Positions 3,061 through 35,250 of a DNA stretch of 64,000 nucleotides are shown here, in pieces. The notes beneath the pieces were generated by a model. That model did not search any database and had not been told where the DNA came from. It saw nothing but the letters and a program-made list of their open reading frames with translations. The stretch is from an uncultured Clostridia bacterium (GTDB taxonomy: Bacteria; Bacillota; Clostridia; Oscillospirales; Acutalibacteraceae), in assembly GCA_947598155.1 (NCBI GenBank), contig CANQFC010000004.1:62001-126000 (forward strand), written 5' to 3'. The position numbers and the translations under genes are program-made. Each line of letters begins with the position of its first letter. Positions within the stretch are counted from its first letter, which is position 1.

Positions 3061-3084
3061 TTAGAAAAATCAATATTCCACGCA

Positions 3085-3346
3085 AACCTATGAGAAAGAG
3101 TAGTAGCTGTTGCGAAACGTTTTAAGAGAGCCGCCGTCGGTGCGAGTGCGGTAACGGTAATATCAGTGAATGGACTTTTGAGGGCAAACCGAACGGCAAC
3201 TATTAGGTGCGACGGAGGGCAACCGTTACAGTGCTTAGCGTATGTTTGTACGCAGTGAGTGCATATCGTTTCGATATGAATTCGGGTGGTACCGCAGGTT
3301 AAGTTTATTTCCTGTCCCGGTAAGTTTTTACCGGGGCATTTTTTAT
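3085..3346 (+). promoter_or_regulatory. T-box leader, specifier read as TGG (Trp)
   Basis: GAGAAAGAGTAGTA 5' region, AGAGAG and GGTGCGAG stem I elements, GAA-TGG-A-CTTTTGAG specifier context (TGG at 3171-3173), GGGTGGTACCGC T-box sequence near 3285-3297, then a CCCGGTAA..TTACCGGGGC-T-run terminator. Confidence 0.9.
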
Positions 3347-3460: not shown

Positions 3461-4573
3461 ATGAAAAAATATATTGCAATTATTCTTGCTCTTGTATTGG
3501 TAATCACTTGCTTTGCGGCTTGCTCAAACAAAAATGACGGCTCAGACAAAGCTCCGTCCACTTCGAGCGAAAAGATAGTAGGTCTTCTCTATGACCCCGG
3601 TCAGGACGCCTCCACAACCGCCATTAAAGAGGCTAAGGCTTTCCTTGACGAAAAGGGAGTTAAGTATAAGGAATACACCGGCACAACCGTTGACGAGGTT
3701 AGCCTTGCGGTTGATTCGGCTATTGCGGATAAGGTTTCCGCGCTTTTCACACCTTCGGACAACACAATTATGACTGCGGAGCTCTCAATTTACGAAAAGC
3801 TGGCTGAGGCTAAAATACCCCACTTTACAGGCGCGGATTCGTTCGCTCTTAACGGCGCTTACCTCGGGTACGGCGTTGACTATATAAACCTCGGCACCGA
3901 AACCGCAAATATGATAGCAGACGTTCTGGTAAACGGCAAGGATACGGCGTCTCTCGCGGTTAAGCAGTTTGACAACGGCACAGCCACAATAAACAAAGAA
4001 ATATGCGAAAAATTAGGCTATAATTTCAATGAAATTTCCGAAAAATATAAGCCTTACTGCCAAAAGATAAACGAAATCAAAACAGGCGAGGCTTTTGACG
4101 ACGGCCTTTCAAGCAATCCGGCTTCCGCTCTTGAATCAGGCAAGCTCGGCGCGGCAAATGCCGAAAAGAGCTTTAAGGTAGGTATCTGCAATTATGTTGA
4201 CGACGCTTCGCTCAATCAAATAGTAAGCAGTATCAAAATCCAGCTTGACAAAATCGGCAAAGAAAAGAATGTTGCTTTTGAAATTGATTATGACAACTGC
4301 AATGCGGATTCAAATGTTATGAACCAGATAATTGCAGGCTTTAACGCAGACAAGGTTGACCTTATGGTAGCTATTGCGACGCCTGTGGCAATGGCTATGC
4401 AGTCCGCAACCGAAGAGAGCAAAATTCCCGTAATTTTCGCGGCCGTTTCCGACCCGGTAAGCACACAGATTGTATCTTCGCTTGAGGCTCCCGGAAAGAA
4501 TATCACAGGCACTTCGGATTACCTTGATACAAAGGCGATTTTCAGCCTTATACTTGAAACAATCGGCGCATAA
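3461..4573 (+). CDS. trpX: ABC transporter substrate-binding lipoprotein, TrpX-like
   Basis: Lipoprotein signal MKKYIAIILALVLVITCFAACS; ABC substrate-binding family; Trp T-box upstream and permease/ATPase downstream. Confidence 0.8.
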   Translation: MKKYIAIILALVLVITCFAACSNKNDGSDKAPSTSSEKIVGLLYDPGQDASTTAIKEAKAFLDEKGVKYKEYTGTTVDEVSLAVDSAIADKVSALFTPSDNTIMTAELSIYEKLAEAKIPHFTGADSFALNGAYLGYGVDYINLGTETANMIADVLVNGKDTASLAVKQFDNGTATINKEICEKLGYNFNEISEKYKPYCQKINEIKTGEAFDDGLSSNPASALESGKLGAANAEKSFKVGICNYVDDASLNQIVSSIKIQLDKIGKEKNVAFEIDYDNCNADSNVMNQIIAGFNADKVDLMVAIATPVAMAMQSATEESKIPVIFAAVSDPVSTQIVSSLEAPGKNITGTSDYLDTKAIFSLILETIGA

Positions 4574-4654
4574 AACGGTAAAACAATAACGCTATGGCAA
4601 ACAGATAATCCGTTTGGATTATCTGTTTGTTAATACTTAAAGAGAAGTGATTTT

Positions 4655-5587
4655 ATGGATTTAAACTCAATTTTAAGTTTGGGTGAAAACGCGTTGCAGT
4701 TGGGGTTAATAAGCTCGCTGACTGTTTTGGCGCTGTTTTTAAGCTATTCAATGCTTAATGTGTGCGACCTTTCAACAGACGGCTGTTTTACCCTCGGCGC
4801 TACCGTCGGCGCGGCAGTTGCCATCGCCGGACATCCGCTTTTGTCAATACCTGCCGCTATGGCGGCCGGCATACTTTCGGGATTTATTACCGCGTTTTTA
4901 CAAACTAAAATGGGTATTAACAGTCTTCTTGCGGGAATTATAGTAAACACAGGTCTTTATTCCGTTAACATTGCGGTGATGGGTAATTCGTCATTGCTTA
5001 ATATGAACAGGACGAAAACTGTCTTTACAATGCTCAAAGACGCGCTTGCCAATACGCCGTTTTCGCAAAACTATGTACTTATAATCGCGCTGTTAGCAAC
5101 GGTGCTTGTTGTTATATTTCTTTCGCTTTTCCTGCGGACTAAGCTGGGACTTGCGATAAGGGCAACGGGCAACAACCCTGATATGGTACCTTCATCGTCT
5201 ATAAATCCCGTTTTTACGACTATTGTCGGCCTTTGCGTTTCAAACTCTTTTACCGCGCTTTCCGGCTGTCTGCTTGCGCAGTCGCAAAAATCCGTTAACA
5301 TTGACATAGGCACCGGTATGGTCACGATAGCGCTCGCCTCTCTTCTTATCGGCGGAATATTCCTCGGCAAGGGCAAAATACCGCTCAGAGCAATAGGCGT
5401 AGTTCTCGGTTCAATTATTTTCAGAGTAATTTACACAATAGCGCTTAGATTTGATATGCCCGCTTATATGCTAAAGCTCGTATCGTCAATTATTGTTATT
5501 ATTGCGATTTCGGCTCCTTATCTTAAATCAAAAATTCCCGAATTTAAACGCAAGATAGCGTTAAAGCGTGGAAAGGAGGCTGTATAA
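4655..5587 (+). CDS. trpY: ABC transporter permease, TrpY-like
   Basis: Multi-TM permease, overlaps/abuts ATPase gene; operon with TrpX-like protein. Confidence 0.8.
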   Translation: MDLNSILSLGENALQLGLISSLTVLALFLSYSMLNVCDLSTDGCFTLGATVGAAVAIAGHPLLSIPAAMAAGILSGFITAFLQTKMGINSLLAGIIVNTGLYSVNIAVMGNSSLLNMNRTKTVFTMLKDALANTPFSQNYVLIIALLATVLVVIFLSLFLRTKLGLAIRATGNNPDMVPSSSINPVFTTIVGLCVSNSFTALSGCLLAQSQKSVNIDIGTGMVTIALASLLIGGIFLGKGKIPLRAIGVVLGSIIFRVIYTIALRFDMPAYMLKLVSSIIVIIAISAPYLKSKIPEFKRKIALKRGKEAV

Positions 5588-6375
5588 TGCTTACTTTATC
5601 ACACATATCTAAGACGTTTAATCCCGGAACGGTAAACGCGAAAACTGCGCTTTCGGATTTGTCATTTCACGCGGATAAAGGCGATTTTATCACGATAATC
5701 GGAGCTAACGGAGCGGGTAAATCTACGCTGTTTAACGCTATATCGGGCAGTTTTATGACCGACAGCGGCAGAATTTTGCTCGATGGCGAGGATATTACTC
5801 TGATGCCGGAATTTAAAAGGGCAAAACAAATAGGCAGACTTTTTCAGGACCCTATGCTCGGCAGTGCGCCCGGAATGAGTATTGAAGAAAATCTTGCTCT
5901 CGCGGCTGGGCACGGCGGCTGGCTCAGTCATATTTCAAAAAAGGATAAGGAAAAATTCCGTGAACGCCTTTCGCTCCTTGAAATGGGGCTTGAGGACAGA
6001 ATGAAACAGCCCGTCGGGCTTCTTTCGGGCGGTCAAAGACAGGCTCTCACCTTAATGATGGCCACGTTCACCCCGCCTAAGCTGTTGCTCCTTGACGAAC
6101 ACACTGCGGCTCTTGACCCGGGAACGGCGGAAAAAGTCTTATCCCTTACAAGGGAAATTGTGAGCGAAAATCATCTTACCTGCCTGATGATTACACACAA
6201 TATGCAGTCGGCGCTCAACCTTGGCAACAGAACGGTTATGATGAACAACGGCAGCATAATTTATGACATTTCCGGTGATGAAAGAAAAAATCTTAAGGTT
6301 AACGATTTGCTTCTTAAATTCAAAGAATGCGTCGGCAAAGAGCTTGATAATGACAGAATGCTTCTTTCAGAATAG
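5587..6375 (+). CDS. trpZ: ABC transporter ATP-binding protein, TrpZ-like
   Basis: Walker A GANGAGKST, signature LSGGQRQALT, Walker B LLLLDEHTAALDP. Confidence 0.85.
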   Translation: MLTLSHISKTFNPGTVNAKTALSDLSFHADKGDFITIIGANGAGKSTLFNAISGSFMTDSGRILLDGEDITLMPEFKRAKQIGRLFQDPMLGSAPGMSIEENLALAAGHGGWLSHISKKDKEKFRERLSLLEMGLEDRMKQPVGLLSGGQRQALTLMMATFTPPKLLLLDEHTAALDPGTAEKVLSLTREIVSENHLTCLMITHNMQSALNLGNRTVMMNNGSIIYDISGDERKNLKVNDLLLKFKECVGKELDNDRMLLSE

Positions 6376-13067: not shown

Positions 13068-13889
13068 TTATTCATCTAAATTAAACAGCCTTACGGTATT
13101 TTCCGAAAGAATTTGTCTTCGCTCATTATCGGTCAAATCAAGCGCCATAAATCTTTTTATCTCATCGTATGGCGACCACATTGGGTAATCCGTGCCGAAA
13201 AGCACCCTGCCCGCGCCGTAACGGCGGATAATCTCCACCGTTTTTTCAGCGTCGAGACAATACATACTTGACGAGCAATCGACATAAAGGTTGGGAATAT
13301 GAGCAAGCTTTTTTGACGCGTCCTCCCACATTGACCAGCCGCCGAAATGGGCGCCGATAACGGTAAGATTTTCGTAAATCTCCAAAACAGGCAAAAGTCT
13401 GTTTGGATTTGAGTTGTCATACCGGCTGTCACCCGTGTGCATTAAAATGGGCAGACCTGCCTTTTCGCATAGCTTATATATTTTAAGACAGCGGTAATCG
13501 TCAATCTTAAACCCCTGTATATCGGGGTGGAGCTTAACGCCGTGTAGCCCTAATTTAATAATATTGTCTATATCGGCCTGCACATTTTCTCTGTCAGGGT
13601 GAAGTGTTCCAAGGCCGATAAGTCGCCCGCCGCTGTTCCTGACGGTTTCCGAGATAAACCGATTGATGCTGTCGACCTGATGCGGATTAGTTGCAACGGA
13701 CTGAACGACGAACCTGTCAATGCCGGCGTCTGTGCCTTTTTTTAAAAGCATAGCGGTGGTGCCGTCACCGTAGGGCTTTATTTTAACTGAATTATAAAAT
13801 TCACATATTGCCTCTGCCGCCTTATTAGCTATTTTATCGGGGTAAATATGACAGTGCGCGTCTATGCAGTGAAATTTGCCGTCTATCAT
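13068..13889 (-). CDS. Amidohydrolase-family TIM-barrel hydrolase/decarboxylase
   Basis: IDAHCHIYPDK, GVKLHPDIQGF, ILMHTGDS, VLFGTDYPMWSP. Confidence 0.85.
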   Translation of the reverse strand: MIDGKFHCIDAHCHIYPDKIANKAAEAICEFYNSVKIKPYGDGTTAMLLKKGTDAGIDRFVVQSVATNPHQVDSINRFISETVRNSGGRLIGLGTLHPDRENVQADIDNIIKLGLHGVKLHPDIQGFKIDDYRCLKIYKLCEKAGLPILMHTGDSRYDNSNPNRLLPVLEIYENLTVIGAHFGGWSMWEDASKKLAHIPNLYVDCSSSMYCLDAEKTVEIIRRYGAGRVLFGTDYPMWSPYDEIKRFMALDLTDNERRQILSENTVRLFNLDE

Positions 13890-16408
13890 GCCGTTACCAC
13901 GCTATCCGCCTTTTGAAGTCCGAGTTTTTCAACCGCGTCCTTGCGCATTTGATATTTAAGAATTTTACCCGCGGCATTCATCGGGAACGAATCCACAAAA
14001 TCCACATATCTCGGAACCTTATGGCGAGCCATAGAGGCGGCGACAAACTGTTTCATCTCATCCTCTGTCATAGTTTCTCCCTCTTTAAGGATTACGCATG
14101 CCATAATTTCCTCGCCGTACTGCTCATCGGGAACGCCGATAACCTGAACGTCGCTGACTTTTGGATTAGTATAGATAAATTCTTCGATTTCTTTCGGATA
14201 AATGTTTTCTCCGCCGCGGATAATCATATCCTTAAGTCTGCCCGTAATCTTGTAGTTCCCTTCGGGCGTGCGGCAGGCAAGGTCGCCGGTGTGGAGCCAG
14301 CCGTCCTTATCTATCGCGGCGGCGGTAGCCTCGGGCATCTTGTAATATCCCTTCATAATGTTATATCCGCGCGCGACAAATTCTCCCGTCACATTGTCGG
14401 GGCATTCCTCCCCTGTCTCCGGGTCAACAATTTTACACTCGATTTCCGGAAGCTCCCTGCCAACCGTTGCAACGCGTACCTCAAGAGGGTCGTCGGTCGA
14501 GCTCATTGTGCATCCCGGGGAGGCCTCAGTCTGACCGTAAACTATCGTGATTTCTCTCATATTCATTTTATTGACAACATCTTTCATAGCCGAAATGGGG
14601 CAAGGACTGCCTGCCATAATACCCGTTCGCATATATGAAAAATCGGTTTTGGGGAAATCTGGGTGCTCAAGCATTGCGATAAACATTGTGGGAACGCCGT
14701 GGAAAGCCGTTATATGCTCGTTATTGATACAGGCGAGCGCGGGTTTCGGCGAGAAATACGGCAACGGCAAAATTGTGCCGCCGTGCGTCATTGTCGCGGT
14801 CATGGCAAGCACCATTCCGAAACAATGGAACATAGGAACCTGAATCATCATTCTGTCCGCAGTAGACAAATCCATTCTGTCGCCTATGCACTTGCCGTTA
14901 TTGACAATGTTATAATGAGTAAGCATAACGCCTTTCGGGAACCCTGTTGTACCGGATGTGTACTGCATATTGCAGACATCGTCACGGTTAACTTTCGCCG
15001 CCATTCTGTAAACCTCTTCTAAAGGCACCTGCGAAGCTCTTTCAAGAGCCTCGTTCCATTCAAGACAGCCTTTCTGGCGGAACCCGACAGTAATTACGTT
15101 GCGTAAAAAAGGCAGTCTTTTGCTGTGGAGAGGAGAACCCGGTTTCGTGTTTTCGAGCTCAGGGCAAAGCTCGGCGACTATTTCGCCGTAGTTTGTATCT
15201 TTAGCGCCTTCGGTCATAACAAGCGTATGCGTATCCGACTGCTTTAAAAGGTATTCCGCCTCGTGAATTTTATAAGCTGTGTTAACGGTGACAAGAACAG
15301 CGCCTATCTTAACTGACGCCCAAAACGTGATATACCACTGCGGAACATTTGAGGCCCATACCGCAACGTGAGTGCCCGCCTTAACACCCATGGAAATAAG
15401 CACTCTCGCAAATTCGTCAACATCGTCACGGAATTGAGAATATGTCCTTGTATAGTCAAGAGTTGTGTATTTAAATGCGTATTGGTCGGGAAACTCCTCA
15501 ACCATTCTGTCAAGCACGCCTGAAAACGTCTCGTCGATAAGCGTTTCCTTTTTCCAAACGTATTTACCCGTATGCGCGTTGTTTGAAAACAGCGTCTTTT
15601 GATTTCGCGAGGTTGGGGCGAACTGTTTCATATAGTTTACGAAATGGGAAAAAATGATTTCCATATCGTCAAGCTCTTCGCACCAAGACGGGTCCCAAAC
15701 AAGCGAAATAAATCCGTCAAAGTTGACCGAACGGAGAGCTAAAATCATATCGTTTATGGGGAGCTGGCCCTCGCCTATAAGGCAGTATTCAATGCCGTCG
15801 TCTGTCTTTACCGCGTCGCTTATGTGAACGTGGCGTACATAAGCGCCCAAATTTTTAATGATTTCTTCTGGCTTTTCGCCTGATGTGAAATAAGCCGCGG
15901 AAACATTCCAAAGTGCCGCAAGATTATCGCAGGCAAAGCGCTCTAACATATCGCGGAGAACCGATGTATCGGCAAACATTCCCGACGTTTCAAGCAGTAA
16001 AGTAACGCTGTTTTCCTCTGCCTGCGGAATAATGTTTTTGAGAAGAGTTTCAACCGCCGAAAAAATTTCTTCGCTGTATTCCTTTTCCGCACGCAGTCTT
16101 ACATACGGGATTTTAAGATTTTTTGCTATTTCAATACAGCTTTTAATTTCTGTCATTGTATCGTCATAAGCAGAATTGTCGGAAACGTCGCATACCGCGT
16201 CAATACAAGTGAGCTGTAAATTCTTTTCATAAAGCTTGCGCAAGGTTGCGGCGGCCGCGTAATCGTGAAACGCGCCGTCCTTATCGGTGAAAAGGCGGTT
16301 ATGAATGTTGTGTAGCTCAATGCCTTCAAATTTAAGCTCCTGAGCTATATCGCAAAAATCCTCAAAACGGGCATCATGCCAGCCCTTTGTTGAAAACGAA
16401 AGTTTCAT
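13886..16408 (-). CDS. Fusion: xylose-isomerase-like TIM-barrel (sugar phosphate isomerase/epimerase) domain plus AMP-forming acyl-CoA ligase (FadD-like)
   Basis: N-terminal ~270 aa MKLSFSTKGWHDARFEDFCDIAQELKFEGIELHNI...; C-terminal YTSGTTGFPKGVMLTHYNI, YGQTEASPG, GWLHTGDLACRTPEGNYKITGRLKDMIIRGGENIYPKEIE. Confidence 0.88.
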   Translation of the reverse strand: MKLSFSTKGWHDARFEDFCDIAQELKFEGIELHNIHNRLFTDKDGAFHDYAAAATLRKLYEKNLQLTCIDAVCDVSDNSAYDDTMTEIKSCIEIAKNLKIPYVRLRAEKEYSEEIFSAVETLLKNIIPQAEENSVTLLLETSGMFADTSVLRDMLERFACDNLAALWNVSAAYFTSGEKPEEIIKNLGAYVRHVHISDAVKTDDGIEYCLIGEGQLPINDMILALRSVNFDGFISLVWDPSWCEELDDMEIIFSHFVNYMKQFAPTSRNQKTLFSNNAHTGKYVWKKETLIDETFSGVLDRMVEEFPDQYAFKYTTLDYTRTYSQFRDDVDEFARVLISMGVKAGTHVAVWASNVPQWYITFWASVKIGAVLVTVNTAYKIHEAEYLLKQSDTHTLVMTEGAKDTNYGEIVAELCPELENTKPGSPLHSKRLPFLRNVITVGFRQKGCLEWNEALERASQVPLEEVYRMAAKVNRDDVCNMQYTSGTTGFPKGVMLTHYNIVNNGKCIGDRMDLSTADRMMIQVPMFHCFGMVLAMTATMTHGGTILPLPYFSPKPALACINNEHITAFHGVPTMFIAMLEHPDFPKTDFSYMRTGIMAGSPCPISAMKDVVNKMNMREITIVYGQTEASPGCTMSSTDDPLEVRVATVGRELPEIECKIVDPETGEECPDNVTGEFVARGYNIMKGYYKMPEATAAAIDKDGWLHTGDLACRTPEGNYKITGRLKDMIIRGGENIYPKEIEEFIYTNPKVSDVQVIGVPDEQYGEEIMACVILKEGETMTEDEMKQFVAASMARHKVPRYVDFVDSFPMNAAGKILKYQMRKDAVEKLGLQKADSVVTA

Positions 16409-16411
16409 TTT

Positions 16412-17791
16412 TTACGCCTCCTCATAAACAATTTTATTGATTGCGTTTATGTAAGCGCGAATGCTCGCCCCTACAATGTCGGTAGAAATACCGTTGCCCG
16501 AATAGACCTTTCCGCCCGCGCGAAGCTTTACAATAGCGGAGCCCATGGCCTCTTTACCCTCTGTGACTGCCTGAATCTGAAAATCGTCAAGCTCATAATG
16601 ATGACCGATAATTTTATCTATTGCGATGAAAGAGGCGTCAATGGGGCCGTCGCCTATTTCGATGCCCTCCATATTTTTGCCGTTTTTATCAAGCGTTATG
16701 TGAGCGGAAGCGGTGATAATATTGCCGTTGTTTATAACGTAGCTTACCAATTTGTATGTCGCAGGAACCTGTAACGCCGCCGACGCAACGATTGCGTCAA
16801 GTTCTTTCGCGCCTACCGCGTTTTTCTTTCTCGCAACGCGTTTAAACTCATTGAAAACCTTTGCCGAATCTTCCTCAGACAAGTCATAGCCGAGCGCCGT
16901 AACGGCCGCCGCTACTGCGGCCTCATCGTCATTTTTGTCAAGAAGAATTGAGCTTTCCGAGGGCTGAACCGTAACGGCGGTCTTTTCATTCTTGGCGTTT
17001 TCCGTTATCCAATTTATCTGCTTAACCGTTCTGTTGAGTTCCGTGTAACGGACAGACGAGCAAAATCCGTATTTTTCGCCGCAGTTTTTGATTATAGAGG
17101 CAAATGTTTCAAGGGAAGCCGTTTCGCCGCCGACTGCGGTTTTAACACAATTTGCCCCCCTGCGCACCGCAAGAATGCTCTGCGCCTCCGCAAATCCGTT
17201 TTTATTGTTGCATTTTACGCCAAGCGGTAAACTGATTTTTTCTTCAAGTTCAGAGATAAAATCCGCAAAATCATCGGGGAGCATAACCGACGCACTGTCG
17301 CAAACCGAAACGCAGTCAGCCCCTGCCGAAACCGCCGTTTCAATAGCTTTTATAAGAAAATCCTCTTCCGTTCTTGTGGCGTCCGCCGCGCAAAATTCAA
17401 CTGTTTCGGCAAAGCCTTTTGCACTTTTTACCGCAAAATCAATCCAGTCAATCATTTTGGCGTCTTTTTTGTGGCAAGTATATTCCATTCCCACGGGGGA
17501 AAGCGGAAGCTCGATTCTTATTCTTGAATGCGCGGCAGAGGAAAGAGCCGCGGCGGCATCCTCAATACTCTGCGCGGTAATGCCCGCCGCTACTGAAATT
17601 ACACTGTTCTTAACGAATGAAGAAATTGTGCGTACAAGCAAAATATCCGTTTTAATATTTTTAATTTCAGGTAGTTCAATAACGTCAACGTTCAGCTTTT
17701 CAAGCTGACGTGCAATCTCAATTTTTTCTTTAAAACTGAATGCGCTGTCTTCACGGCAAAGCGTCGTGTCTGCAATTTTGATTTGTTTCAT
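16412..17791 (-). CDS. 2-isopropylmalate synthase (LeuA)-like protein with HMGL-like and LeuA allosteric domains; catalytic motifs degenerate
   Basis: IADTTLCREDSAFSFKEKIEIARQLEKLNVDVIEL aligns with LeuA FDTTLRDGEQ...; C-terminal GNGISTDIVGASIRAYINAINKI matches the LeuA regulatory domain. Confidence 0.85.
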   Translation of the reverse strand: MKQIKIADTTLCREDSAFSFKEKIEIARQLEKLNVDVIELPEIKNIKTDILLVRTISSFVKNSVISVAAGITAQSIEDAAAALSSAAHSRIRIELPLSPVGMEYTCHKKDAKMIDWIDFAVKSAKGFAETVEFCAADATRTEEDFLIKAIETAVSAGADCVSVCDSASVMLPDDFADFISELEEKISLPLGVKCNNKNGFAEAQSILAVRRGANCVKTAVGGETASLETFASIIKNCGEKYGFCSSVRYTELNRTVKQINWITENAKNEKTAVTVQPSESSILLDKNDDEAAVAAAVTALGYDLSEEDSAKVFNEFKRVARKKNAVGAKELDAIVASAALQVPATYKLVSYVINNGNIITASAHITLDKNGKNMEGIEIGDGPIDASFIAIDKIIGHHYELDDFQIQAVTEGKEAMGSAIVKLRAGGKVYSGNGISTDIVGASIRAYINAINKIVYEEA

Positions 17792-17822: not shown

Positions 17823-18090
17823 ATAAATCCCCGAAGCTTATAGCTTCAGGGACGAATAAAATCCGCGGTACCACCCTAATTGATTTGAGTTAACAAATCC
17901 GCTTTGTAAGGTTCTAACAAACCCTTTGCCATGATAACGGGGCACGCCGTAACTGCTTACTTACATTTCCGCAGCTCTGCTCGAGAATGAGGCTCGTTAT
18001 CCGTTCATACTGCCTTTCACCGCACGGCAGCTCTCTGAAATGAATTTAGGATAACAATTAATTCCTTCATTGCATTTGAGATATTGAAAT
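17823..18090 (-). promoter_or_regulatory. T-box leader, specifier read as CTC (Leu)
   Basis: AGGGTGGTACCGCGG T-box sequence (RC of 17862-17876); GAGC-CTC-A-TTCTCGAG specifier context (CTC = plus-strand 17989-17991); CAGAGAG stem I element; GTTATCC/GGATAAC helix; CCCGAAGC/GCTTCGGGG terminator hairpin. Confidence 0.87.
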
Positions 18091-18237: not shown

Positions 18238-18702
18238 TTATGACACAGACTTACTCTCAGACGGAAGTTTTTCCGCAGTATTGGACTTTTCAACCCATTT
18301 TGTTTTGATTTTTCCGTTATCGTTAAATACCCAAAGCTCGGTACAAATTTCTCCGGCAGAGGTATATTGCTTTGATTCTTCTGTTATATTATGCTGAAGT
18401 ACTGTATTTATCTCTACAACGGAAACGTTTTTAGTATTTGAAATAATACGGTACACATAGTTGCACAAAATATCTTCAGCCTCATATTTATTAAATCCGT
18501 CGATATAATTCTTAATTTCACTGTTAATTTTGTCTGTTTCGGACTCATCTGCTCCGCGTACAGACGACGCCGTAATCATAAACCCGTCAACATCCCAATC
18601 CACTGCTTTTGAAAATCCGCTTTTCTCATATACAGTTAAAGATAAGATTACAAGAAGTTGTACAAGCACTGCCGAAGTAAATATCAATATCTTTTTCATC
18701 AA
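18238..18702 (-). CDS. Hypothetical protein with N-terminal TM/signal segment
   Basis: ORF with MMKKILIFTSAVLVQLLVILSLTVY; RBS-like upstream; no family recognised. Confidence 0.6.
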   Translation of the reverse strand: MMKKILIFTSAVLVQLLVILSLTVYEKSGFSKAVDWDVDGFMITASSVRGADESETDKINSEIKNYIDGFNKYEAEDILCNYVYRIISNTKNVSVVEINTVLQHNITEESKQYTSAGEICTELWVFNDNGKIKTKWVEKSNTAEKLPSESKSVS

Positions 18703-18714
18703 TTTGTACCTCCT

Positions 18715-19158
18715 TTATTTAACGATTGTCATATAAGGCGTCTCATTCTCAAAGGTTATCCAAACCTCCCAAACTGCGCCGTTTTCCGCTCCGGATATTT
18801 CGTAACAGAAATCGTTTGAAGAGGCGGACAGCTTTTTTATGTTAATGTTTTGTGTAAACCCGTTTTCTCTTATGTAATCTGCCGAAATATTTTCATTCAT
18901 CATCGTCATATAAAGATCGTTCACAGCCTTTGGACTGCCGGCCTTTCTTTCCACACTGTCCTGCCCCGGTCTTGCAAAATACTTTACATTCGCCACACTT
19001 ACAGTACCGTTGCTGTTTATTTGAGAAACAGATGAATTTTCTCTTATTTCCCATTTTGCAGGCATTATTTTTAAAACCGAAAATACTAACATAGCAACTA
19101 AAATTATTTCAACCGCAACAGCCAAAATGACTGCCGGTATTTTATTTTTATTTTTCAT
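18715..19158 (-). CDS. Hypothetical membrane-anchored protein
   Basis: ATG at 19156-19158 preceded by GGAGGATAAT; MKNKNKIPAVILAVAVEIILVAMLVFSVL. Confidence 0.6.
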   Translation of the reverse strand: MKNKNKIPAVILAVAVEIILVAMLVFSVLKIMPAKWEIRENSSVSQINSNGTVSVANVKYFARPGQDSVERKAGSPKAVNDLYMTMMNENISADYIRENGFTQNINIKKLSASSNDFCYEISGAENGAVWEVWITFENETPYMTIVK

Positions 19159-19172
19159 ATTATCCTCCCGAA

Positions 19173-19880
19173 TTATATTTGCGGAATCGTCGGTCCAGCA
19201 AGAGAATATGGTGTTGTAAATATTGAAATTGTACACGATTTCAATACACTGTGTGCAATAAAGCTGAATTTTCCAAACTGGTATATTGACGGAGAGTGTT
19301 GAAATCTAAAGCCTCCTATAACACTGCAATCTTTATCCATCATCGTATAAGCAAACCATTTATCTTTTTGTGAACTGTAATAGTAATAAGTAATATTAAG
19401 ATTGTTATCATTTACACTGAACAAAGGTCTTTTATGTTTCGACGATTTTATAACTACTGCGCTGTGAGAACGACAAAACTTAAACGGTTTTGTATTAAAA
19501 AAGTCCTCATCTAAGCCCGTTGCAGTAAAAGAATATTCACTTGAATTAACATTGCTGTCAAAGTTCGACAAATCAATAAAATCAGAAGGTGCGGATCTTT
19601 GCATATTCTGATTTTCATTATGCGGTATTTCCAAATTTAATTCATAAATCAAATCCTCGTCAGTCACTTCCAAAGAAGGTAAACTTAAAGCAATCCCAAT
19701 TTTTTCACCGTTAATCTTCTGATACGGCATACCGTATTCATCTAAATAGTATTCTATTTCGCTCCCGTCTTCTGCTATAAAAATATTTGGCTTATCGGCA
19801 TTAATGTTAACCGCAAATGTTTCAACTGACATTGCAAATATAAACATTACTACACTTAAAATACTTATAAATTTTTTCAT
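19173..19880 (-). CDS. Hypothetical secreted protein
   Basis: Signal peptide MKKFISILSVVMFIFAMSVETFAV; no family recognised. Confidence 0.6.
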   Translation of the reverse strand: MKKFISILSVVMFIFAMSVETFAVNINADKPNIFIAEDGSEIEYYLDEYGMPYQKINGEKIGIALSLPSLEVTDEDLIYELNLEIPHNENQNMQRSAPSDFIDLSNFDSNVNSSEYSFTATGLDEDFFNTKPFKFCRSHSAVVIKSSKHKRPLFSVNDNNLNITYYYYSSQKDKWFAYTMMDKDCSVIGGFRFQHSPSIYQFGKFSFIAHSVLKSCTISIFTTPYSLAGPTIPQI

Positions 19881-25565: not shown

Positions 25566-26630
25566 TCAGTCAATGGGGAGAGTCCAGCCGTAAGTGTCCT
25601 CAATTTTACCCCACTGAATACCTGTAAGGGTATCGTAAAGATGCTGTGTAACCTCGCCGATTTTACCGCCGTTAACTGTATATTTCATATCCTTGTAGCA
25701 AAGCTCGCCTATAGGTGAAACAACAGCCGCCGTTCCCGTGCCCCAAGCCTCTTCAAGAGTGCCGTTCTTCATAGAATCGGCAAGCTCGTCAACGGAAATT
25801 CTTCTCTCAACAACCTTGTATCCCTCTTTGCGGAGTACCTCAAGGCAAGATTTTCTTGTGATACCGGGAAGTATTGAACCTGTAAGCATAGGTACTACAA
25901 CCTCACCGTTAATTTTGAACATAACGTTCATTGCGCCTACTTCTTCAATGTACTTTCTCTCAACGCCGTCAAGCCAAAGAACCTGTGAATAGCCTTTTTT
26001 CTCCGCTCTTTCGCCTGCTCTGTTAGACGCGGCATAGTTACCGCCGCATTTTGCCTCGCCTGTTCCGCCGACAACCGCGCGGACATCCTCGGACTCAATC
26101 ATAATTTTAACGGGGTTAATGCCCTCTTTGTAATATGAGCCTACGGGCGAAGCGATAATCATAAATGTCGCATTATGTACCGCGTGAACGCCGAGGGATT
26201 CGTCGTTGCCGAACATAAACGGGCGAATGTAAAGCGATGTGCCCTCTGCCGACGGGGTCCAGTCCTTTTCAACCTCAACAAATTTGGTGTAAATTTCAAG
26301 CGCCATATCCTCGGGAATTTTCGGCAAACAAAGACGGTCTGCCGAGTTATTCATTCTGCGGATATTTTCAATGGGTCTGAAAAGCTGAACCTTGCCGTCC
26401 GCTCTTCTGTACGCCTTAAGTCCCTCAAAAATTTCGGAGCCGTAATGAAGACATGTTGAAGCGGGGTGGATTGAAAGGTTTGCAAAGGGAATTATTCTTG
26501 CGTCCTTCCAGCCTGTATCCTTATTCCAGTCCATTGCAAACATATAGTCTGTAAAAATCTTGCCGAAACCGAGCGTTGCAGGGTCCGGTTTTTCCTTTAA
26601 AACATCTGCTTTTACAAATTTAATATCCAT
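25566..26630 (-). CDS. ilvE: Branched-chain amino acid aminotransferase
   Basis: LHYGSEIFEGLKAYRRADGKVQLFRP, YIEEVGAMNVMFKINGEVV, GSILPGITRKSCLEV. Confidence 0.95.
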   Translation of the reverse strand: MDIKFVKADVLKEKPDPATLGFGKIFTDYMFAMDWNKDTGWKDARIIPFANLSIHPASTCLHYGSEIFEGLKAYRRADGKVQLFRPIENIRRMNNSADRLCLPKIPEDMALEIYTKFVEVEKDWTPSAEGTSLYIRPFMFGNDESLGVHAVHNATFMIIASPVGSYYKEGINPVKIMIESEDVRAVVGGTGEAKCGGNYAASNRAGERAEKKGYSQVLWLDGVERKYIEEVGAMNVMFKINGEVVVPMLTGSILPGITRKSCLEVLRKEGYKVVERRISVDELADSMKNGTLEEAWGTGTAAVVSPIGELCYKDMKYTVNGGKIGEVTQHLYDTLTGIQWGKIEDTYGWTLPID

Positions 26631-26643
26631 ATGTATCTCTCCT

Positions 26644-27180
26644 TTATTCGTAATCTGCTCCGAGCTTCATAGCGTTGAGATTTACCTCAAGCATATCTGC
26701 GTGCTTTGCCGAAACAACCTTGCCGAGCGCCGCCCTTACGGCCTCGTCGCTGAATTCGCCGAGCACCTTTAAAATCTTGCCGACAATAATCATATTCGCA
26801 AGGGTGGGAGTGCCGTTTTCGCTTGCAAGCCTTGTCGCGGGTATGTAATAAACCGTTACATCGTCGCGTTTAACCTTTCTCTCAATAAGGGTTGAATCCG
26901 CAAAGATAACGCCGCCGGGAACAACTGCGTCCTCATATCTGTCCAAAGAGGGAAGATTCATCGCAATAAGCATATCGGGATTTGAAACTATCGGAGAGCC
27001 TACGGGTTCGTCACTTACGATTACCGAACAGCTTGCCGTACCGCCTCTCATCTCAGGCCCGTATGACGGGAGCCAGCTTACCTGTTTATTCTCTATAAGC
27101 CCTTTGTACGCAAGGAATTTTCCGGCAAAAAGTATGCCCTGCCCGCCGAATCCGGAGAACAAAAACTGTTTTGTGCTCAT
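26644..27180 (-). CDS. 2-oxoacid:ferredoxin oxidoreductase gamma subunit
   Basis: [50 protein letters not shown]. Confidence 0.92.
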
Positions 27181-27182
27181 AA

Positions 27183-27941
27183 TTATTCAGCCTCCTTTTC
27201 TGCGCTTCTGTCCTTATATACGCCCAAGGGGTAATAAGGTATCATTTTATCATCTATCCATTTAAGCGCCGCCTGCGGCGTCATACCCCAGTTTGTGGGG
27301 CAGGAGGAGATAACCTCGACCAGCGAGAAACCCTTGCCGTCTATCTGATTTTGGAAAGCCTTTTTAATAGCCTTTTTAGCTGTTCTTATGTTCTTTACAC
27401 TGTTTACGGTTACTCTTTCAAGGTATTCGGGACCCTCAAGCTCAGAGAGCATTTCGCACACCTTAATGGGGAAACCGCAGTGCTTTGTGTCTCTGCCGTA
27501 GGGAGAGGTCTGAGTTACCTGACCGGGGAGCGATGTAGGAGCCATCTGACCGCCCGTCATACCATAAATCGCATTGTTAATGAAAATAACGGTTATATTT
27601 TCGTTTCTTGCGGCGGCGTGAACCGTCTCAGCCATACCTATGGAGGCAAGGTCGCCGTCGCCCTGATATGTAAATACAATATGGTTCTCGGGGTCTGCCC
27701 TCTTAACGCCTGTCGCCACTGCCGGTGCGCGTCCGTGCGCCGCCTCTATCATATCGCAGTTAAAATAATTGTAAGCCATAACAGAGCAGCCAACGGGTGC
27801 AATGCCGATAGTTTTGCCCTCGATGCCCAATTCATCAATAACCTCTGCCACAAGACGGTGAATTATGCCGTGGGTGCAGCCGGGGCAGTAATGCAGCGGC
27901 ACATCTATGAGCGCATGCGGTTTATCAAATACTACTGCCAT
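27183..27941 (-). CDS. 2-oxoacid:ferredoxin oxidoreductase beta subunit (TPP-binding)
   Basis: [60 protein letters not shown]. Confidence 0.93.
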
Positions 27942-29005
27942 TATTTAACACCTCCGTTGTTTACTTCGATAATTGATTTTAATACCTGCTCGGGGCTCGG
28001 TATCATACCGCCTACCCTGTTGCAGAGCGTTACGGGTACTTTACAGCTTGTAGCAAGCTTAACATCTTCTATCATCTGACCCATTGAAAGCTCAACGGAG
28101 ATAAACGCATTGGCGTGTTCAACGGCCTTTTCAAACGGAGCTTTCGGGAACGGCCAAAGGGTAATCGGACGGATAAGCCCCGCCTTTATGCCCTGCTTTC
28201 TCGCCTCGTTTACCGCATTCTTTGAAACACGGGCGGCAATGCCGAAAGCGGCTATTACTATATCGGCGTCGTCAACCATATATTCCTCATACATAGTTTC
28301 GCTCTCTTCAACTATTTTATATCTCTCGTAACGCTTTATATTGAGCATTTCAAGCTCTTCGGGGACGAGTGAAAGCGAGTTTACTATGTTATGTTCTCTT
28401 TCGAGCTTTGTGCCTGTTGTTGCCCAGGGCTTTTCGGGCGCGGGCTTTATGTCAAAGTCAAGCGAAACAGGCTCCATCATCTGACCCATGGTTCCGTCTG
28501 CAAGAATCATAGATGTCATTCTGTATTTGTCCGCAAGGTCAAAGCCCTTGACGGTAAGCTCCGCCATTTCCTGAACGGAGGCCGGAGCAAGCACTATCAT
28601 ATGATAATCTCCGTGTCCTCCGCCCCTTGTCGCCTGGAAATAATCCGACTGCGACGGCTGTATTCCGCCAAGTCCCGGGCCGCCTCTCTGAACATTTACT
28701 ACGAGCGCCGGAAGATCCGAGCCGGCAAGATATGAAAGTCCCTCGCCCTTAAGTGAAATTCCGGGGCTTGAAGAAGATGTCATAACCCTTTTGCCGGCAG
28801 AAGATACGCCGTAAACCATATTTATAGCGGCTATCTCGCTTTCTGCCTGAAGAAAGCAACCGCCGATTTTCGGCATTTTCTTTGCCATATAAGCGGCAAC
28901 CTCAGTCTGAGGCGTTATAGGATAGCCGAAATAATGACGGCAGCCTGCAATAATAGCAGCTTCTGCAATAGCTTCGTTGCCTTTCATTAAAACTTTATCT
29001 GCCAT
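27941..29005 (-). CDS. vorB: 2-oxoacid:ferredoxin oxidoreductase alpha subunit, VorB type
   Basis: MADKVLMKGNEAIAEAAIIAGCRHYFGYPITPQTEVAAYMAKK, SSSSPGISLKGEGLSYLAGSDLP. Confidence 0.88.
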   Translation of the reverse strand: MADKVLMKGNEAIAEAAIIAGCRHYFGYPITPQTEVAAYMAKKMPKIGGCFLQAESEIAAINMVYGVSSAGKRVMTSSSSPGISLKGEGLSYLAGSDLPALVVNVQRGGPGLGGIQPSQSDYFQATRGGGHGDYHMIVLAPASVQEMAELTVKGFDLADKYRMTSMILADGTMGQMMEPVSLDFDIKPAPEKPWATTGTKLEREHNIVNSLSLVPEELEMLNIKRYERYKIVEESETMYEEYMVDDADIVIAAFGIAARVSKNAVNEARKQGIKAGLIRPITLWPFPKAPFEKAVEHANAFISVELSMGQMIEDVKLATSCKVPVTLCNRVGGMIPSPEQVLKSIIEVNNGGVK

Positions 29006-29990: not shown

Positions 29991-32306
29991 TTACAGCTTG
30001 TTTCTCTGAATTTTGCCGCTTGTAGTCTTTGGAAGAGAGTCGCGGAAAACGACTATTCTCGGATATTTATAAGGCGCTGTATGAGTCTTAACGTAATTCT
30101 GAATTTCCTTTTTAAGTTCTTCGGTGCCCTCAACGCCGTCTACCAAAACGATACTCGCCTTTACAACTTGCCCTCTTATCTCATCGGGAGCCGCCGAAAC
30201 GCCGCATTCAAGGACATAGGGCAGTTCCATAATAACGCTTTCAATCTCAAACGGTCCTATACGGTAGCCCGAGGACTTGATAACGTCGTCAACACGGCCG
30301 ACGTACCAGTAAAATCCGTCTTCGTCTTTCCAGGCGGCGTCGCCCGTGTGGTAATAGCCGTCGTGCCAAACTTCCTTGGTCTTTTCCTCATCTCCGTAAT
30401 AGCCTACAAAAAGGCCGCACGGAGCGCCGTTTTTGACATTTACAACGATTTCTCCCGTTTCGCCTACGGGAACGGGTTTGCCGTCCTTATCCAAAAGCTC
30501 AATGTCATATATAGGAGCGGGCTTGCCCATAGAGCCGACTTTGTGCTTTGCACCTCTCATATTGCCTATGAGCATAGTGCCCTCTGTCTGACCGAAGCCC
30601 TCAAGAATCTGAAGCCCCGTAAGCTGTTCAAACTGTTTGTAAACCTCGGGATTCAGCGCCTCGCCAGCAGTTGTCATATGCTTTACGGACGATAAATCGT
30701 ATTTTGAAATATCCTGCTTAACGAGCATACGAAGCATAGTAGGAGGAGCGCAGAAAGTAGTTATGTGATATTTCGCGAACATCGGCAGAATATCCGCCGC
30801 GTCAAATCGGTCAAAATCGTAAACAAAGAGCGCCGCTTCACACATCCACTGCCCGTAAAATTTGCCCCAAGCTGATTTTGCCCAGCCTGTGTCCGAAATA
30901 GTCAAATGAAGTCCGTCGGGGTCAACGCAGTGCCAATATTTTGCCGTGTGGAAATGTCCGAGCGGATATTTATAGTTATGAGCCGCGATTTTCGGATAGC
31001 CCGAAGTGCCCGATGTAAAGTACATAAGCATTAAATCATCGCCGCCGGGAGCGTCGTCGGGCCTTTCGTAATGACTGCTGTAAAGCACATATTCCTCGTT
31101 AAAATTGTGCCAGCCTTCTCTTTCGCCGTTTACTATAAGCTTTCTCTCAAGCTCGGGGTAGCTTTGCGCCGCAATATCTACCTGATGCGCTACGTCGCCG
31201 TCGGCGGTGCAGATAACGGTCGTCGCTCCCGAAGATACAAGGCGGTACTCAATATCGTGAGCCTGAAGCTGAGCAACCGCAGGTATGCCTATTGCCCCTA
31301 TCTTCATAAGTCCGAGCATTGCCATCCAGAACTGGTAATGGCGTTTAAGAATAAGAATTACCCTGTCGCCGCGCTTTATTCCTATTGATTTAAAGTAGTT
31401 AGCGCATTGATTTGACAAATGGCGTACATCGTTAAACGTAAACCTGCGCTCCTCTTTTTCTCTTGAAACGTGGAGCATCGCGAGCTTGTCGGGGTCTTTC
31501 TTCGCAATCTCATCCATAATGTCAAATGCGAAGTTGAACCTGTCGTGATTTTTAAAGGTTATTTTTACCGGGGTGCCGTTTTCATTCTTGACAACGTCGA
31601 TATACTTTTTATATATTCTCTCTTTTTTATCTTCTTTTGCCTTAATTATGCTCACAATCGGCTTTTGCGCGCGGCTGAGCTCGGGAATAGGCTCGCCCGA
31701 GGGATTGAGCACTATGGCGTAGAAAACGCAGTCCTCGCCGAGAGCCGCCCTCATACCGTGGGGCGTGCCGCTGTCATAATATATTGTGTCGCCGGGATTT
31801 AAAACCTCCGTATGCGTGCCCACCTGTACCATAAGGTGGCCTGAAATAACAATATCCATTTCCTGGCCGTCGTGCGTTGTAAGCTCGATTTCCCTGTTTT
31901 CCGCCTCGGCATTGTAATCGCACTTAACATAGAGCGGATCCGCTATTCTGTTTTGGAAAGCGGAGGCGAGGGAGTAATAAACCATACCGTGAGCATGCTC
32001 TATCATCTGCCCCTGACCGTTTCTTGTCACAACATATGAACGAAGCGTGGGGCTTACGCCCTCGATAATATCGGTAACATCTACGCCGAAAGCCTGCGCA
32101 CAGCGGTAAATAAAGGCAAAGTTCAAATCGCTGTCGCCGTTTTCGCATTTAAGATATTCTTCTACCGAAACGTCCGTTTTTGACGCCATTTCCTCAGGCG
32201 TAAATTTTGTAATTTCTCGAAGTTCACGGATTCTTTCGGACATTTCCTTGATTTTCAAATCAAGACCCGTTAATTTTTGCATACCATTTTCTCCTTTAAG
32301 GGACAA
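29991..32306 (-). CDS. Three-domain fusion: XRE-type HTH + cupin + AMP-forming acyl-CoA ligase (ACSM/MacS-like)
   Basis: HTH-like IRELREITKFTPEEMASKTDVSVEEYLKCENG; cupin GQEMDIVISGHLMVQVGTHTEVLNPGDTIYYDSGTPHGMRA; ligase YFTSGTSGYPKIAAHNYKYPLGH, EGFGQTEGT, GDAAWKDEDGFYWYVGRVDDVIKSSGYRIGPFEIE, PKTTSGKIQRNKL; start may be the internal Met of MQKLTG at ~32280. Confidence 0.9.
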   Translation of the reverse strand: MSLKGENGMQKLTGLDLKIKEMSERIRELREITKFTPEEMASKTDVSVEEYLKCENGDSDLNFAFIYRCAQAFGVDVTDIIEGVSPTLRSYVVTRNGQGQMIEHAHGMVYYSLASAFQNRIADPLYVKCDYNAEAENREIELTTHDGQEMDIVISGHLMVQVGTHTEVLNPGDTIYYDSGTPHGMRAALGEDCVFYAIVLNPSGEPIPELSRAQKPIVSIIKAKEDKKERIYKKYIDVVKNENGTPVKITFKNHDRFNFAFDIMDEIAKKDPDKLAMLHVSREKEERRFTFNDVRHLSNQCANYFKSIGIKRGDRVILILKRHYQFWMAMLGLMKIGAIGIPAVAQLQAHDIEYRLVSSGATTVICTADGDVAHQVDIAAQSYPELERKLIVNGEREGWHNFNEEYVLYSSHYERPDDAPGGDDLMLMYFTSGTSGYPKIAAHNYKYPLGHFHTAKYWHCVDPDGLHLTISDTGWAKSAWGKFYGQWMCEAALFVYDFDRFDAADILPMFAKYHITTFCAPPTMLRMLVKQDISKYDLSSVKHMTTAGEALNPEVYKQFEQLTGLQILEGFGQTEGTMLIGNMRGAKHKVGSMGKPAPIYDIELLDKDGKPVPVGETGEIVVNVKNGAPCGLFVGYYGDEEKTKEVWHDGYYHTGDAAWKDEDGFYWYVGRVDDVIKSSGYRIGPFEIESVIMELPYVLECGVSAAPDEIRGQVVKASIVLVDGVEGTEELKKEIQNYVKTHTAPYKYPRIVVFRDSLPKTTSGKIQRNKL

Positions 32307-32586
32307 GAAAAAACCCGTCCCAAAGTTAATTCTTTGAGACGAGCGTTAAACTTAGATTTAATACCCGCGGTACCACTCAAATTGCAACCGAAATTGCCAC
32401 TCAGGCTCTGACAAGCCGTATGCATTAACGCAGCAGTCACGGAGAAGTTCTACTAAGCAAATTGCCGTTCTTCCTCTCGGCTCAGAAGCTACAACAGAAA
32501 CAGCAGTTCCGACAACTCGCACCAACCGTTGCCTCTCTTTAGGCACGCTCCGTTTCTGAACTCTTCTTCAACGCTTTTGTTGAATA
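32290..32586 (-). promoter_or_regulatory. T-box leader, specifier read as GTA (Val)
   Basis: GAGTGGTACCGCGGG T-box sequence; AGAGAGGCAACGGTTGGTGCGAG stem I; TT-GTA-G-CTTCTGAG specifier context (GTA = plus-strand 32490-32492); terminator CCCGTC...GACGGGTTTTTT. Confidence 0.88.
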
Positions 32587-32641: not shown

Positions 32642-34912
32642 TTAAAGCTTATTTCTTTGAATTTTGCCGCTGATAGTCTTTGGAAGTTCATCTTTGAACA
32701 CGACAATTCTCGGATATTTGTAAGGCGCCGTATGTGTTTTTACATAATCCTGAATTTCTTTTTTAAGCTCTTCGGTGCCGTTTGTGCCGTTAGTAAGAAC
32801 GATGCTAGCTTTTACCACCTGACCCCTGACCTCGTCTGGGGCGGCCGAAACGCCGCATTCAAGAACATAGGGCAGTTCCATAATAACGCTTTCAATCTCA
32901 AAAGGCCCTATACGGTAGCCCGAAGACTTGATAACGTCGTCAACACGCCCGACGTACCAGTAAAATCCGTCTTCATCTTTCCAAGCCGTGTCGCCCGTGT
33001 GGTAATAGCCGTCGTGCCAAACTTCATTGGTCGCCTCTTCGTTGTCAAAATACCCCGAGAAAAGGCCGCAGGGAATTTTTTCGCTTGTCTTAATGCAAAT
33101 TTCACCTGTTTCGCCTACGGGAACGGGATTTCCGTCAAAGTCAAGTATCTCGCAGTCATAAAGCGGCGAGGGCCTGCCCATAGAGCCTATCTTATGCGAG
33201 TAGCCCATAAGATTGCCTATTACCATTGTGGTTTCAGTCTGACCGAACGCCTCTTTTATCTGAAGTCCGGTTGCCTTTTCAAATTGTTTGTAAACCTCTG
33301 GATTCAGCGCCTCGCCCGCCGTTGTCATATGGCGGATAGACGAAAGGTCGAACTTTGAAAGGTCCTGTTTAATCATCATACGAAGCATTGTGGGAGGCGC
33401 GCAGAAAGTTGTTATATGGTATTTTGCGAACATCGGAAGAATGGTATTTGCATCAAAGCGGTCAAAGTCGTAAGTAAACACCGCTCCCTCGCAGAGCCAC
33501 TGGCCGTAAAGTTTGCCCCAAAGAGCCTTGCCCCAGCCCGTTTCGGAAATGGTGAAGTGAAGTCCGTCCGGGCTTACACCGTGCCAATATTTTGCCGTGA
33601 TATAGTGACCGAGCGCGTATTTATAAGACTGAGTAGCAATTTTCGGGTAGCCAGTTGTACCTGATGTAAACAACATTATCATCGGGTCGTTTCCGCAGGC
33701 GGTATCCTCTGTGCGGTAATAGTGCGCGCTGAAGAGCTCGTATTCGCTGTTGAAATCGTGCCAGCCTTCACGCGTACCGCCTACAAGAATTTTTGTCTTT
33801 AACGTAGGCGAATTTTTCTGCGCCAAGTCTACCTGATGAGCGACGTCGCCGTCGGCAGTGCAGACAATAGCGTTAACCTTACCTGTGTTAAAGCGGTAAT
33901 CAAAATCGTGCTCCTGAAGCATATTAGTCGCGGGAATCGCAACCGCTCCGATTTTATGAAGAGCGAGAATAGAGAACCAGAATTGATAATGGCGCTTTAA
34001 CACGAGCATAACTCTGTCGCCTTTTTTAATGCCGAGAGACGTAAAGTAGTTTGCCACCTGATTAGAGGCGCGTTTCATATCGTTAAACGTGAATCTGCGC
34101 TCCGTCATATCTTTTGAGATATGTACCATCGCGGTCTTATCGGGAGATTTAGCGGCGATGGCGTCAACAACGTCGAACGCAAAGTTGAATTGATCCTCGT
34201 TTTTAAATTTAATAGCAGTAAGCCTTCCCTGCTCATCCTCAGTGCATTCAATAAACTTGTTGCTCACATATTCCTGCTCATCTGCCTTTTTCGGAATGAG
34301 CGTGTCGCGTACAAGCTCCTCTTTTGTCTCCGCTCCCGGCAAAACGACTGCAAGGAAAAGGCAGTCTTCGCCATTTATAGCTATCATACCGTGGGGAGTT
34401 GAGCTGTTATAATAAATGCTGTCCCCCTCGTTAAGCTCCTCAATATTGTTGCCTACCTGTACCTTAAGGCTCCCTTTAAGCACATAGTCAAATTCCTGAC
34501 CCGAATGGTTGGTCAAATGAATCGGTTTGTTTTGAAGCTGTTCGCTGTACTCATATTTTACAAAATGAGGCTCTGCGATTTTTTTGCTGAATTTGGGCGC
34601 AAGATTTACGATTTCAATTCCGTCTTCCTTTGCGGTCTTTTGACCGTGCCCCTTGCGCGTTACGGTGTAAGATTTAAGATGCGCGCTTTTGCCCTCAAGA
34701 ATATTTGTGATGTCAATGTCAAAAACGTGCGCGCACTTATGAAGGAAAGTAAACGGGAAATCGAGCTTTCCCTCCTCAAACAGTCGGTAATCGTCAACGG
34801 TAACCTCAGTTTCAACGGCCATTTCTTCCTGGGTTAGGCCGGAAATCTCCCTCATTTCGCGAATTCGCATTGCCACCTCTAAAAGTTTTTCTTTTTCTGA
34901 TGTGGTATTCAA
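32642..34912 (-). CDS. Three-domain fusion: XRE-type HTH + cupin + AMP-forming acyl-CoA ligase, paralogue of 29991-32306
   Basis: IREMREISGLTQEEMAVETEVTVDDYRLFEEG; cupin HSGQEFDYVLKGSLKVQVGNNIEELNEGDSIYYNSSTPHGM; ligase LFTSGTTGYPKIATQSYKYALGH; PKTISGKIQRNKL. Confidence 0.9.
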   Translation of the reverse strand: MNTTSEKEKLLEVAMRIREMREISGLTQEEMAVETEVTVDDYRLFEEGKLDFPFTFLHKCAHVFDIDITNILEGKSAHLKSYTVTRKGHGQKTAKEDGIEIVNLAPKFSKKIAEPHFVKYEYSEQLQNKPIHLTNHSGQEFDYVLKGSLKVQVGNNIEELNEGDSIYYNSSTPHGMIAINGEDCLFLAVVLPGAETKEELVRDTLIPKKADEQEYVSNKFIECTEDEQGRLTAIKFKNEDQFNFAFDVVDAIAAKSPDKTAMVHISKDMTERRFTFNDMKRASNQVANYFTSLGIKKGDRVMLVLKRHYQFWFSILALHKIGAVAIPATNMLQEHDFDYRFNTGKVNAIVCTADGDVAHQVDLAQKNSPTLKTKILVGGTREGWHDFNSEYELFSAHYYRTEDTACGNDPMIMLFTSGTTGYPKIATQSYKYALGHYITAKYWHGVSPDGLHFTISETGWGKALWGKLYGQWLCEGAVFTYDFDRFDANTILPMFAKYHITTFCAPPTMLRMMIKQDLSKFDLSSIRHMTTAGEALNPEVYKQFEKATGLQIKEAFGQTETTMVIGNLMGYSHKIGSMGRPSPLYDCEILDFDGNPVPVGETGEICIKTSEKIPCGLFSGYFDNEEATNEVWHDGYYHTGDTAWKDEDGFYWYVGRVDDVIKSSGYRIGPFEIESVIMELPYVLECGVSAAPDEVRGQVVKASIVLTNGTNGTEELKKEIQDYVKTHTAPYKYPRIVVFKDELPKTISGKIQRNKL

Positions 34913-34961: not shown

Positions 34962-35250
34962 AAAATAAAAAACACTCGCCTCAAAAACTTTGAGACGAGT
35001 GTGAAAATCACATCCGCGGTACCACTCAAATTGCAAGCCTTTCGGCCGCCGCTCTCGGAATCCAACAATTCCTATGCCTTTACGCAGCAATCACGGGAAG
35101 CGCCTACTGAATGCGCAGCGCATTGTTCGGACTTCCGGCTCGGAAGGGATGGGCGTTCAAATGCTCAATGCCGGTTCACACCTGCCACCGACTCTCTGAA
35201 AAAGACTCATTTGTGCCGTCTTCGTCACAGCCTTTGTTTCAATTTGCACA
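34962..35250 (-). promoter_or_regulatory. T-box leader, specifier read as ATC (Ile)
   Basis: GAGTGGTACCGCGGA T-box sequence; CAGAGAGTCGGTGGCAGGTGTGAACCGG stem I; CC-ATC-C-CTTCCGAG specifier context (ATC = plus-strand 35148-35150); terminator ACACTCGTCTCAAAG..CTTTGAGGCGAGTGTTTTTT. Confidence 0.82.

Follow-up and report, generated by a model that had tools for sequence, protein, structure and literature searches.

What can a protein of the LeuA type still do when the residues needed for catalysis are gone, its leucine-binding allosteric domain remains and its gene stands directly behind a leucine T-box? This question is raised by a locus of an uncultured Clostridia bacterium, whose genome is 99.7% complete, and the window considered here is the whole stretch of 64,000 nucleotides that was analysed around it (Table 1). 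A sequence-only reading of this DNA had described the protein, hereafter LeuA-like, as a pseudoenzyme, possibly a leucine sensor or a scaffold, with a conceivable link to the neighbouring ligase fusion.

Table 1. Features of the window bearing on the LeuA-like gene; functions and substrates are predictions
Feature	Coordinates	Strand	Basis
Fusion of a TIM barrel (AP_endonuc_2) with an AMP-forming acyl-CoA ligase, 840 aa; predicted isovalerate--CoA ligase	13886..16408	-	Pfam
TIM domain of the fusion, xylose-isomerase-like, with a partly degenerate metal site	15695..16351	-	AlphaFold pLDDT 93.8
AMP-binding and AMP-binding_C ligase domains of the fusion	13964..15511	-	Pfam
Amidohydro_2 protein, overlapping the ligase stop by 4 nt	13068..13889	-	Pfam
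Putative LeuA-like pseudoenzyme, 459 aa	16412..17791	-	ORF, ATG start, Pfam, alignment
HMGL-like (DRE-TIM) barrel, degenerate, residues 14-222, without the catalytic and metal-binding residues	17126..17752	-	Pfam PF00682, E 7.9e-32; alignment; fold match 3ewb
LeuA_dimer (leucine-binding allosteric) domain, residues 328-454, intact	16430..16810	-	Pfam PF08502, E 8.9e-30, 103.7 bits vs cut-off 24.9; most conserved region
Leu T-box leader (specifier CUC), 53 nt upstream of the LeuA-like ATG	17845..18079	-	RF00230, 134.4 bits
IlvE, branched-chain aminotransferase	25566..26630	-	NF009897, 481 bits, cut-off 307
2-oxoacid:ferredoxin oxidoreductase gamma subunit	26644..27180	-	Pfam POR
2-oxoacid:ferredoxin oxidoreductase beta (TPP) subunit	27183..27941	-	
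VorB, 2-oxoacid:ferredoxin oxidoreductase alpha subunit	27941..29005	-	NF005507, 535 bits, cut-off 399
HTH-cupin-acyl-CoA ligase, MbcS-like, 771 aa; predicted isobutyrate--CoA ligase	29991..32306	-	
T-box, specifier GUA (Val), before ligase 29991-32306	32332..32580	-	RF00230, 87.0 bits, E 1.4e-18, below gathering score 93
HTH-cupin-acyl-CoA ligase, MbcS-like, 756 aa; predicted 2-methylbutyrate--CoA ligase	32642..34912	-	
T-box, specifier AUC (Ile), before ligase 32642-34912	34988..35237	-	RF00230, 72.7 bits, E 7e-15, below gathering score 93

Regarding the catalytic machinery, alignment to LeuA of the same order shows that the catalytic Arg is replaced by Cys and the metal-binding Asp by Arg (DTTLRDGEQ reads DTTLCREDS), that the HxH metal motif reads KCN, its two metal His being changed to Lys and Asn, that the Glu of the EDATR motif is Ala (A136), and that GERAGN is shrunk to ETAS, its GERA part being deleted. 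The departures at DTTLCREDS, KCN and ETAS had been pointed out before and all reappear in the alignment, and the loss is larger than was then claimed, as about 45 residues including AFAHESGIHQHG...TYE are also deleted, a change that had gone unnoticed. In MAM/IPMS, the equivalent segment, its position being read from alignment, carries the general-base His and a stacking Tyr (PMC11532901). Likewise, in methylthioalkylmalate synthase, roles towards the substrate, the metal or acid/base chemistry are assigned to Arg89, Asp90, His288, His290, Glu227, His388 and Tyr399, and replacing Arg89, Glu227 or His388 mostly gives an inactive enzyme (PMC11532901). The equivalents of these residues, again as read from the alignment, are gone in LeuA-like and almost always in its relatives from gut Clostridia, a set of 99 full-length sequences (92 distinct), of which 9% retain the catalytic Arg; retention is 0% for the metal Asp, 0% and 3% for the two metal His, and 0% for the segment with the catalytic His. 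Thus, the LeuA catalytic and metal residues are lost in the window protein and in the 99 relatives, with the exception of occasional single residues, and since the same losses recur in relatives, sequencing error was rejected as their source.

Family and fold comparisons place the protein close to LeuA without making it a member. Its best NCBIfam score, against leuA_bact (TIGR00973/PRK00915 type), is 290 bits where 532 are required, and it falls equally short of the citramalate synthases (citramal_synth, 70 bits, cut-off 450) and the homocitrate synthases (nifV, 95 bits, cut-off 463), the metal site being lost as well. The AlphaFold model has a pLDDT of 84.9 and a pTM of 0.59, the latter leaving the packing of the domains uncertain; in Foldseek searches with this model, MAM and LeuA rank first, and the barrel matches 3ewb with a TM of 0.91 on the target and an rmsd of 1.7. 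LeuA-like therefore shares with LeuA the order of the two domains, the barrel fold and the LeuA_dimer domain, whereas it differs in lacking the catalytic and metal residues and the catalytic-His segment, in being shorter (459 vs about 500-515 aa), and in being followed by a ligase gene instead of other leu genes.

Besides these losses, the leucine domain, claimed earlier to be intact, has indeed been preserved, as it passes the Pfam cut-off of PF08502 and presents motifs that fit the leucine-carboxylate helices. GxGPxD (380-385) and GxGxSTDI (432-439) are invariant or nearly so in the relatives, and in the AlphaFold model they stand at the starts of helices at 383 and 439. In LeuA from M. tuberculosis, two helices of this domain hold the leucine carboxylate between their N-termini (PMC11057210), and the helices at 383 and 439 are inferred to correspond to those two, the motifs being in agreement. 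When the 99 full-length sequences are compared, 36% of the LeuA_dimer columns are at least 95% identical vs 11% of the barrel columns.

The gene is widespread and under purifying selection. It is carried by 21 genomes in a set of 60 closely related ones and by 31 among 149 genomes of the order, spread over 12 families, most of the genomes compared being metagenome assemblies; at least 587 stretches of GTDB genomes match it, and the 80 that were fetched come from gut Clostridia, mostly of ruminants. Its dN/dS is about 0.06-0.11, with dS saturated. The pseudoenzyme status proposed earlier is hence upheld by the loss of the catalytic and metal machinery across relatives together with purifying selection, and supports the description of LeuA-like as a putative catalytically dead LeuA paralogue, for which there are no activity data.

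The T-box ahead of the gene is real, as had been supposed, matching RF00230 at 134.4 bits and having a CUC specifier. The frame of the specifier was set by a Trp T-box of the same window (3081-3322(+)), where UGG stands six nucleotides before the conserved GAG; the reading UUC (Phe) instead of CUC was rejected, as this T-box has its UGG at the same spacing. In the ilv-leu operon of B. subtilis, control by leucine is conferred by a CUC specifier (Marta et al. 1996, as cited in PMC2494555). A T-box motif is found at 80 of 87 distinct relative loci, with a Leu codon in 73 of the 80, a non-Leu codon in three, and no recognisable T-box in about 8% of the loci; these codons were read by pattern at the fixed spacing and not by structure. 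The Trp T-box itself precedes an ABC transporter of the ABC_sub_bind type (3461-6375(+)), likely a tryptophan transporter. Three small ORFs with signal-like N-termini (18238-19880(-)) separate the Leu T-box operon from a regulator of the AraC type.

Concerning the link to the neighbouring ligase fusion, it finds strong expression in gene order, as the fusion begins 3 nt after the LeuA-like stop codon, and the TIM-ligase is the next gene, usually a few nucleotides away, at all 81 distinct loci where the sequence extends far enough to test the neighbour. In many relatives, the Amidohydro_2 gene comes third in the operon, and one genome has a second TIM-ligase and amidohydrolase copy, cut by the contig start (L063, G030:C53). 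In the first 20 relatives, the identity to the window is 71-96% for the ligase part and 41-80% for LeuA-like. The fusion occurs without LeuA-like in five genomes (G039, G046, G051, G055 and G057), and in three of these it is immediately preceded by a T-box that exceeds the gathering score and has CUC as its specifier. Because a ligase under a Leu T-box occurs without LeuA-like, the ligase can be taken as the core of the leucine regulon and LeuA-like as an add-on, which looks like an added regulator and not an enzyme of the pathway. Position 168 of the TIM domain (window 15695-16351(-)) is often Asn, and position 170 Ser or Tyr, at loci bearing LeuA-like, while fusions without it (L055-L059) have Asp and His, respectively; a loss of the TIM domain's own metal site may have accompanied the arrival of LeuA-like, although no tree stands behind this suggestion.

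The pathway to which a leucine signal could belong is indicated by what the genome has and what it lacks. A second, intact leuA was sought elsewhere in the genome and rejected, as none exists there, the sole other HMGL-like gene encoding a protein of the oxaloacetate-decarboxylase/transcarboxylase type; in the same genome, no LeuC above the cut-off and no IlvC were found. Without LeuA, LeuC and IlvC, leucine cannot be formed from pyruvate in this organism. This pattern extends to the relatives: in the 60-genome set, LeuC occurs in 1 of 21 carriers of LeuA-like vs 29 of the 39 others, ilvC in 2/21 vs 30/39, and VOR, the branched-chain 2-oxoacid:ferredoxin oxidoreductase, in 21/21 vs 13/39; among the 149 genomes, LeuC is present in 1 of 31 carriers vs 85 of 118 others, and VOR in 29/31 vs 68/118. 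The Fisher p values for these co-occurrences range from 9e-5 to 8e-13, ignoring phylogeny, and a single carrier in each set also has LeuC (G001 and G125). In about 20 genomes, VOR is no more than 15 kb away. The gene set expected for reductive carboxylation is thus in place, with an acid-CoA ligase, VOR and IlvE present and the IPM and IlvC steps absent. Rumen bacteria are known to carboxylate isovalerate to leucine (Allison et al. 1962, 1966, as cited in PMC7356843). The fit of the gene set strongly supports reductive carboxylation as a means of scavenging isovalerate, isobutyrate and 2-methylbutyrate, the entry of isovalerate carbon into leucine being inferred.

The assignment of the three acids to three ligases rests on the T-box codons. 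The Val and Ile T-boxes were found by a genome-wide T-box search; the orthologues of the 29991-32306 ligase show a GUA or GUC specifier in every resolvable case and those of the 32642-34912 ligase AUC in all resolvable cases, several loci remaining unresolved. The best family for the ligase domains of both HTH-cupin fusions is MbcS, known from Staphylococcus aureus, at about 434-441 bits vs a cut-off of 850 bits, so they are not MbcS equivalogs, and they differ from it in being fused to HTH and cupin domains and in standing behind Val and Ile T-boxes. MbcS activates isobutyrate and 2-methylbutyrate, and isovalerate poorly (PMC10026030). If the MbcS-like pair takes isobutyrate and 2-methylbutyrate, elimination and the Leu T-box leave isovalerate as the inferred substrate of the TIM-ligase. 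The fusion of a DNA-binding and cupin module to a ligase is unusual, and this module may be a second sensing layer.

The explanation that best accounts for these observations, and which is regarded as probable while still well short of secure, is that a dead LeuA has been kept as a leucine-sensing subunit of an isovalerate ligase, similar to HisZ, in an organism making its leucine from isovalerate, with the binding and the complex being inferred. When leucine is scarce, uncharged tRNA-Leu would open the Leu T-box and the operon would be transcribed; isovalerate, once taken up, would be activated by the TIM-ligase fusion of the same operon, VOR would reductively carboxylate isovaleryl-CoA to 2-oxoisocaproate, and IlvE would aminate the latter to leucine. 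Plentiful leucine would instead bind the pseudoenzyme at its LeuA_dimer domain; the proposal has the pseudoenzyme attached to the ligase, which it would then inhibit in the manner of HisZ acting on HisG-short in histidine synthesis. The catalytic loss, the leucine domain, the operon, the T-box codons, the absent pathway genes and the presence of VOR and IlvE can be read from the DNA itself; meanwhile, leucine binding, a complex of LeuA-like with the ligase and the sign of the regulation are inferred, there being no binding, activity or interaction data. A sensor role, as suggested earlier, is supported indirectly by LeuA_dimer being the most conserved region, by the Leu T-box and by the coupling to a fitting ligase.

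The barrel may speak against a purely regulatory protein. About 30 of its positions are at least 95% conserved in the 99 relatives, among them the new K109 and K217, and D137, R140 and D165 are kept, so the barrel may bind a ligand or have an unknown activity. For this reason, the main rivals include a barrel with a newly acquired activity: the metal site would have been swapped for a new active site serving a different step between isovalerate and leucine, with leucine feedback on the enzyme itself. However, the metal ligands, the catalytic His/Tyr and the Glu are lost, the barrel is twice as variable as the leucine domain, the route through ligase, VOR and IlvE needs no extra step, and some genomes have the fusion without LeuA-like, all of which makes such neofunctionalisation unlikely. 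The tight coupling within the operon would also be expected of a scaffold or chaperone that holds the ligase, and perhaps VOR, together, with the leucine domain kept only for dimerisation, since LeuA_dimer also dimerises LeuA; but its glycine-rich motifs, which fit the leucine pocket, are conserved throughout, probably beyond the need of a dimer interface alone, and with the Leu T-box context and the existence of ligases lacking a LeuA-like gene, only a small chance can be given to it.

VOR and acyl-CoA ligases are able to run catabolically, and iso-fatty acids are primed by isovaleryl-CoA, hence the operon could in principle serve the breakdown of leucine or isovalerate, or the supply of branched-chain fatty acids, instead of leucine synthesis. 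This is very improbable, as Leu, Val and Ile T-boxes turn genes on in response to a shortage of the amino acid, in agreement with synthesis, and as ilvC and leuC are missing in the same genomes. Finally, a functionless, decaying leuA remnant in a leucine auxotroph, to which the missing leuC and ilvC could point, was rejected by the conservation and the dN/dS values, the frame staying open in hundreds of stretches and across no fewer than 12 families of the order and the operon position being constant, so that hardly any credence is left to it.

The sensor-subunit explanation finds its closest precedent in HisZ, a dead paralogue of histidyl-tRNA synthetase. HisZ has no catalytic power, carries a histidine pocket and controls HisG-short, the first enzyme of the pathway (PMC9734150). 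Similarly, LeuA-like is, as far as its sequence alone can tell, a dead relative of a metabolic enzyme using the same amino acid, and its gene is coupled to that of a ligase also found without the regulator, the position of this ligase as the first committed enzyme being inferred. The fold and the pathway are different, and the complex and feedback demonstrated for HisZ are only predicted for LeuA-like. On the metabolic side, the ruminococcal isovalerate pathway (Allison et al. 1962, 1966, as cited in PMC7356843) has in common with the present system that isovalerate is carboxylated and aminated to leucine in gut Clostridia, many of them ruminant; the difference is that the present proposal comprises a ligase, VOR, IlvE, T-boxes and a sensor, and no paper naming genes, T-boxes or a regulator for that pathway was found in the literature searched, whose coverage was partial. 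A published pseudo-LeuA or an acyl-CoA ligase under a Leu T-box was not found either, within the same partial coverage. It is somewhat better than an even chance that this is a new kind of feedback, in which a dead LeuA serves an isovalerate--CoA ligase as its sensor subunit, this ligase being one of three branched-chain acid ligases in a regulon, each under a T-box for its own product (Leu, Val and Ile), giving a genetic basis to the rumen isovalerate route known since 1962.

Because LeuA-like resembles 2-isopropylmalate synthase, metabolic models based on homology may wrongly predict the usual leucine route in such organisms. The system also indicates that feedback control can outlive its pathway, as the sensor half of the lost enzyme appears to have been transferred to the enzyme that opens the replacement route, and it provides testable genes by which bacteria of the rumen and gut may turn isovalerate into leucine, a route that would account for their use of branched-chain volatile acids as growth factors.
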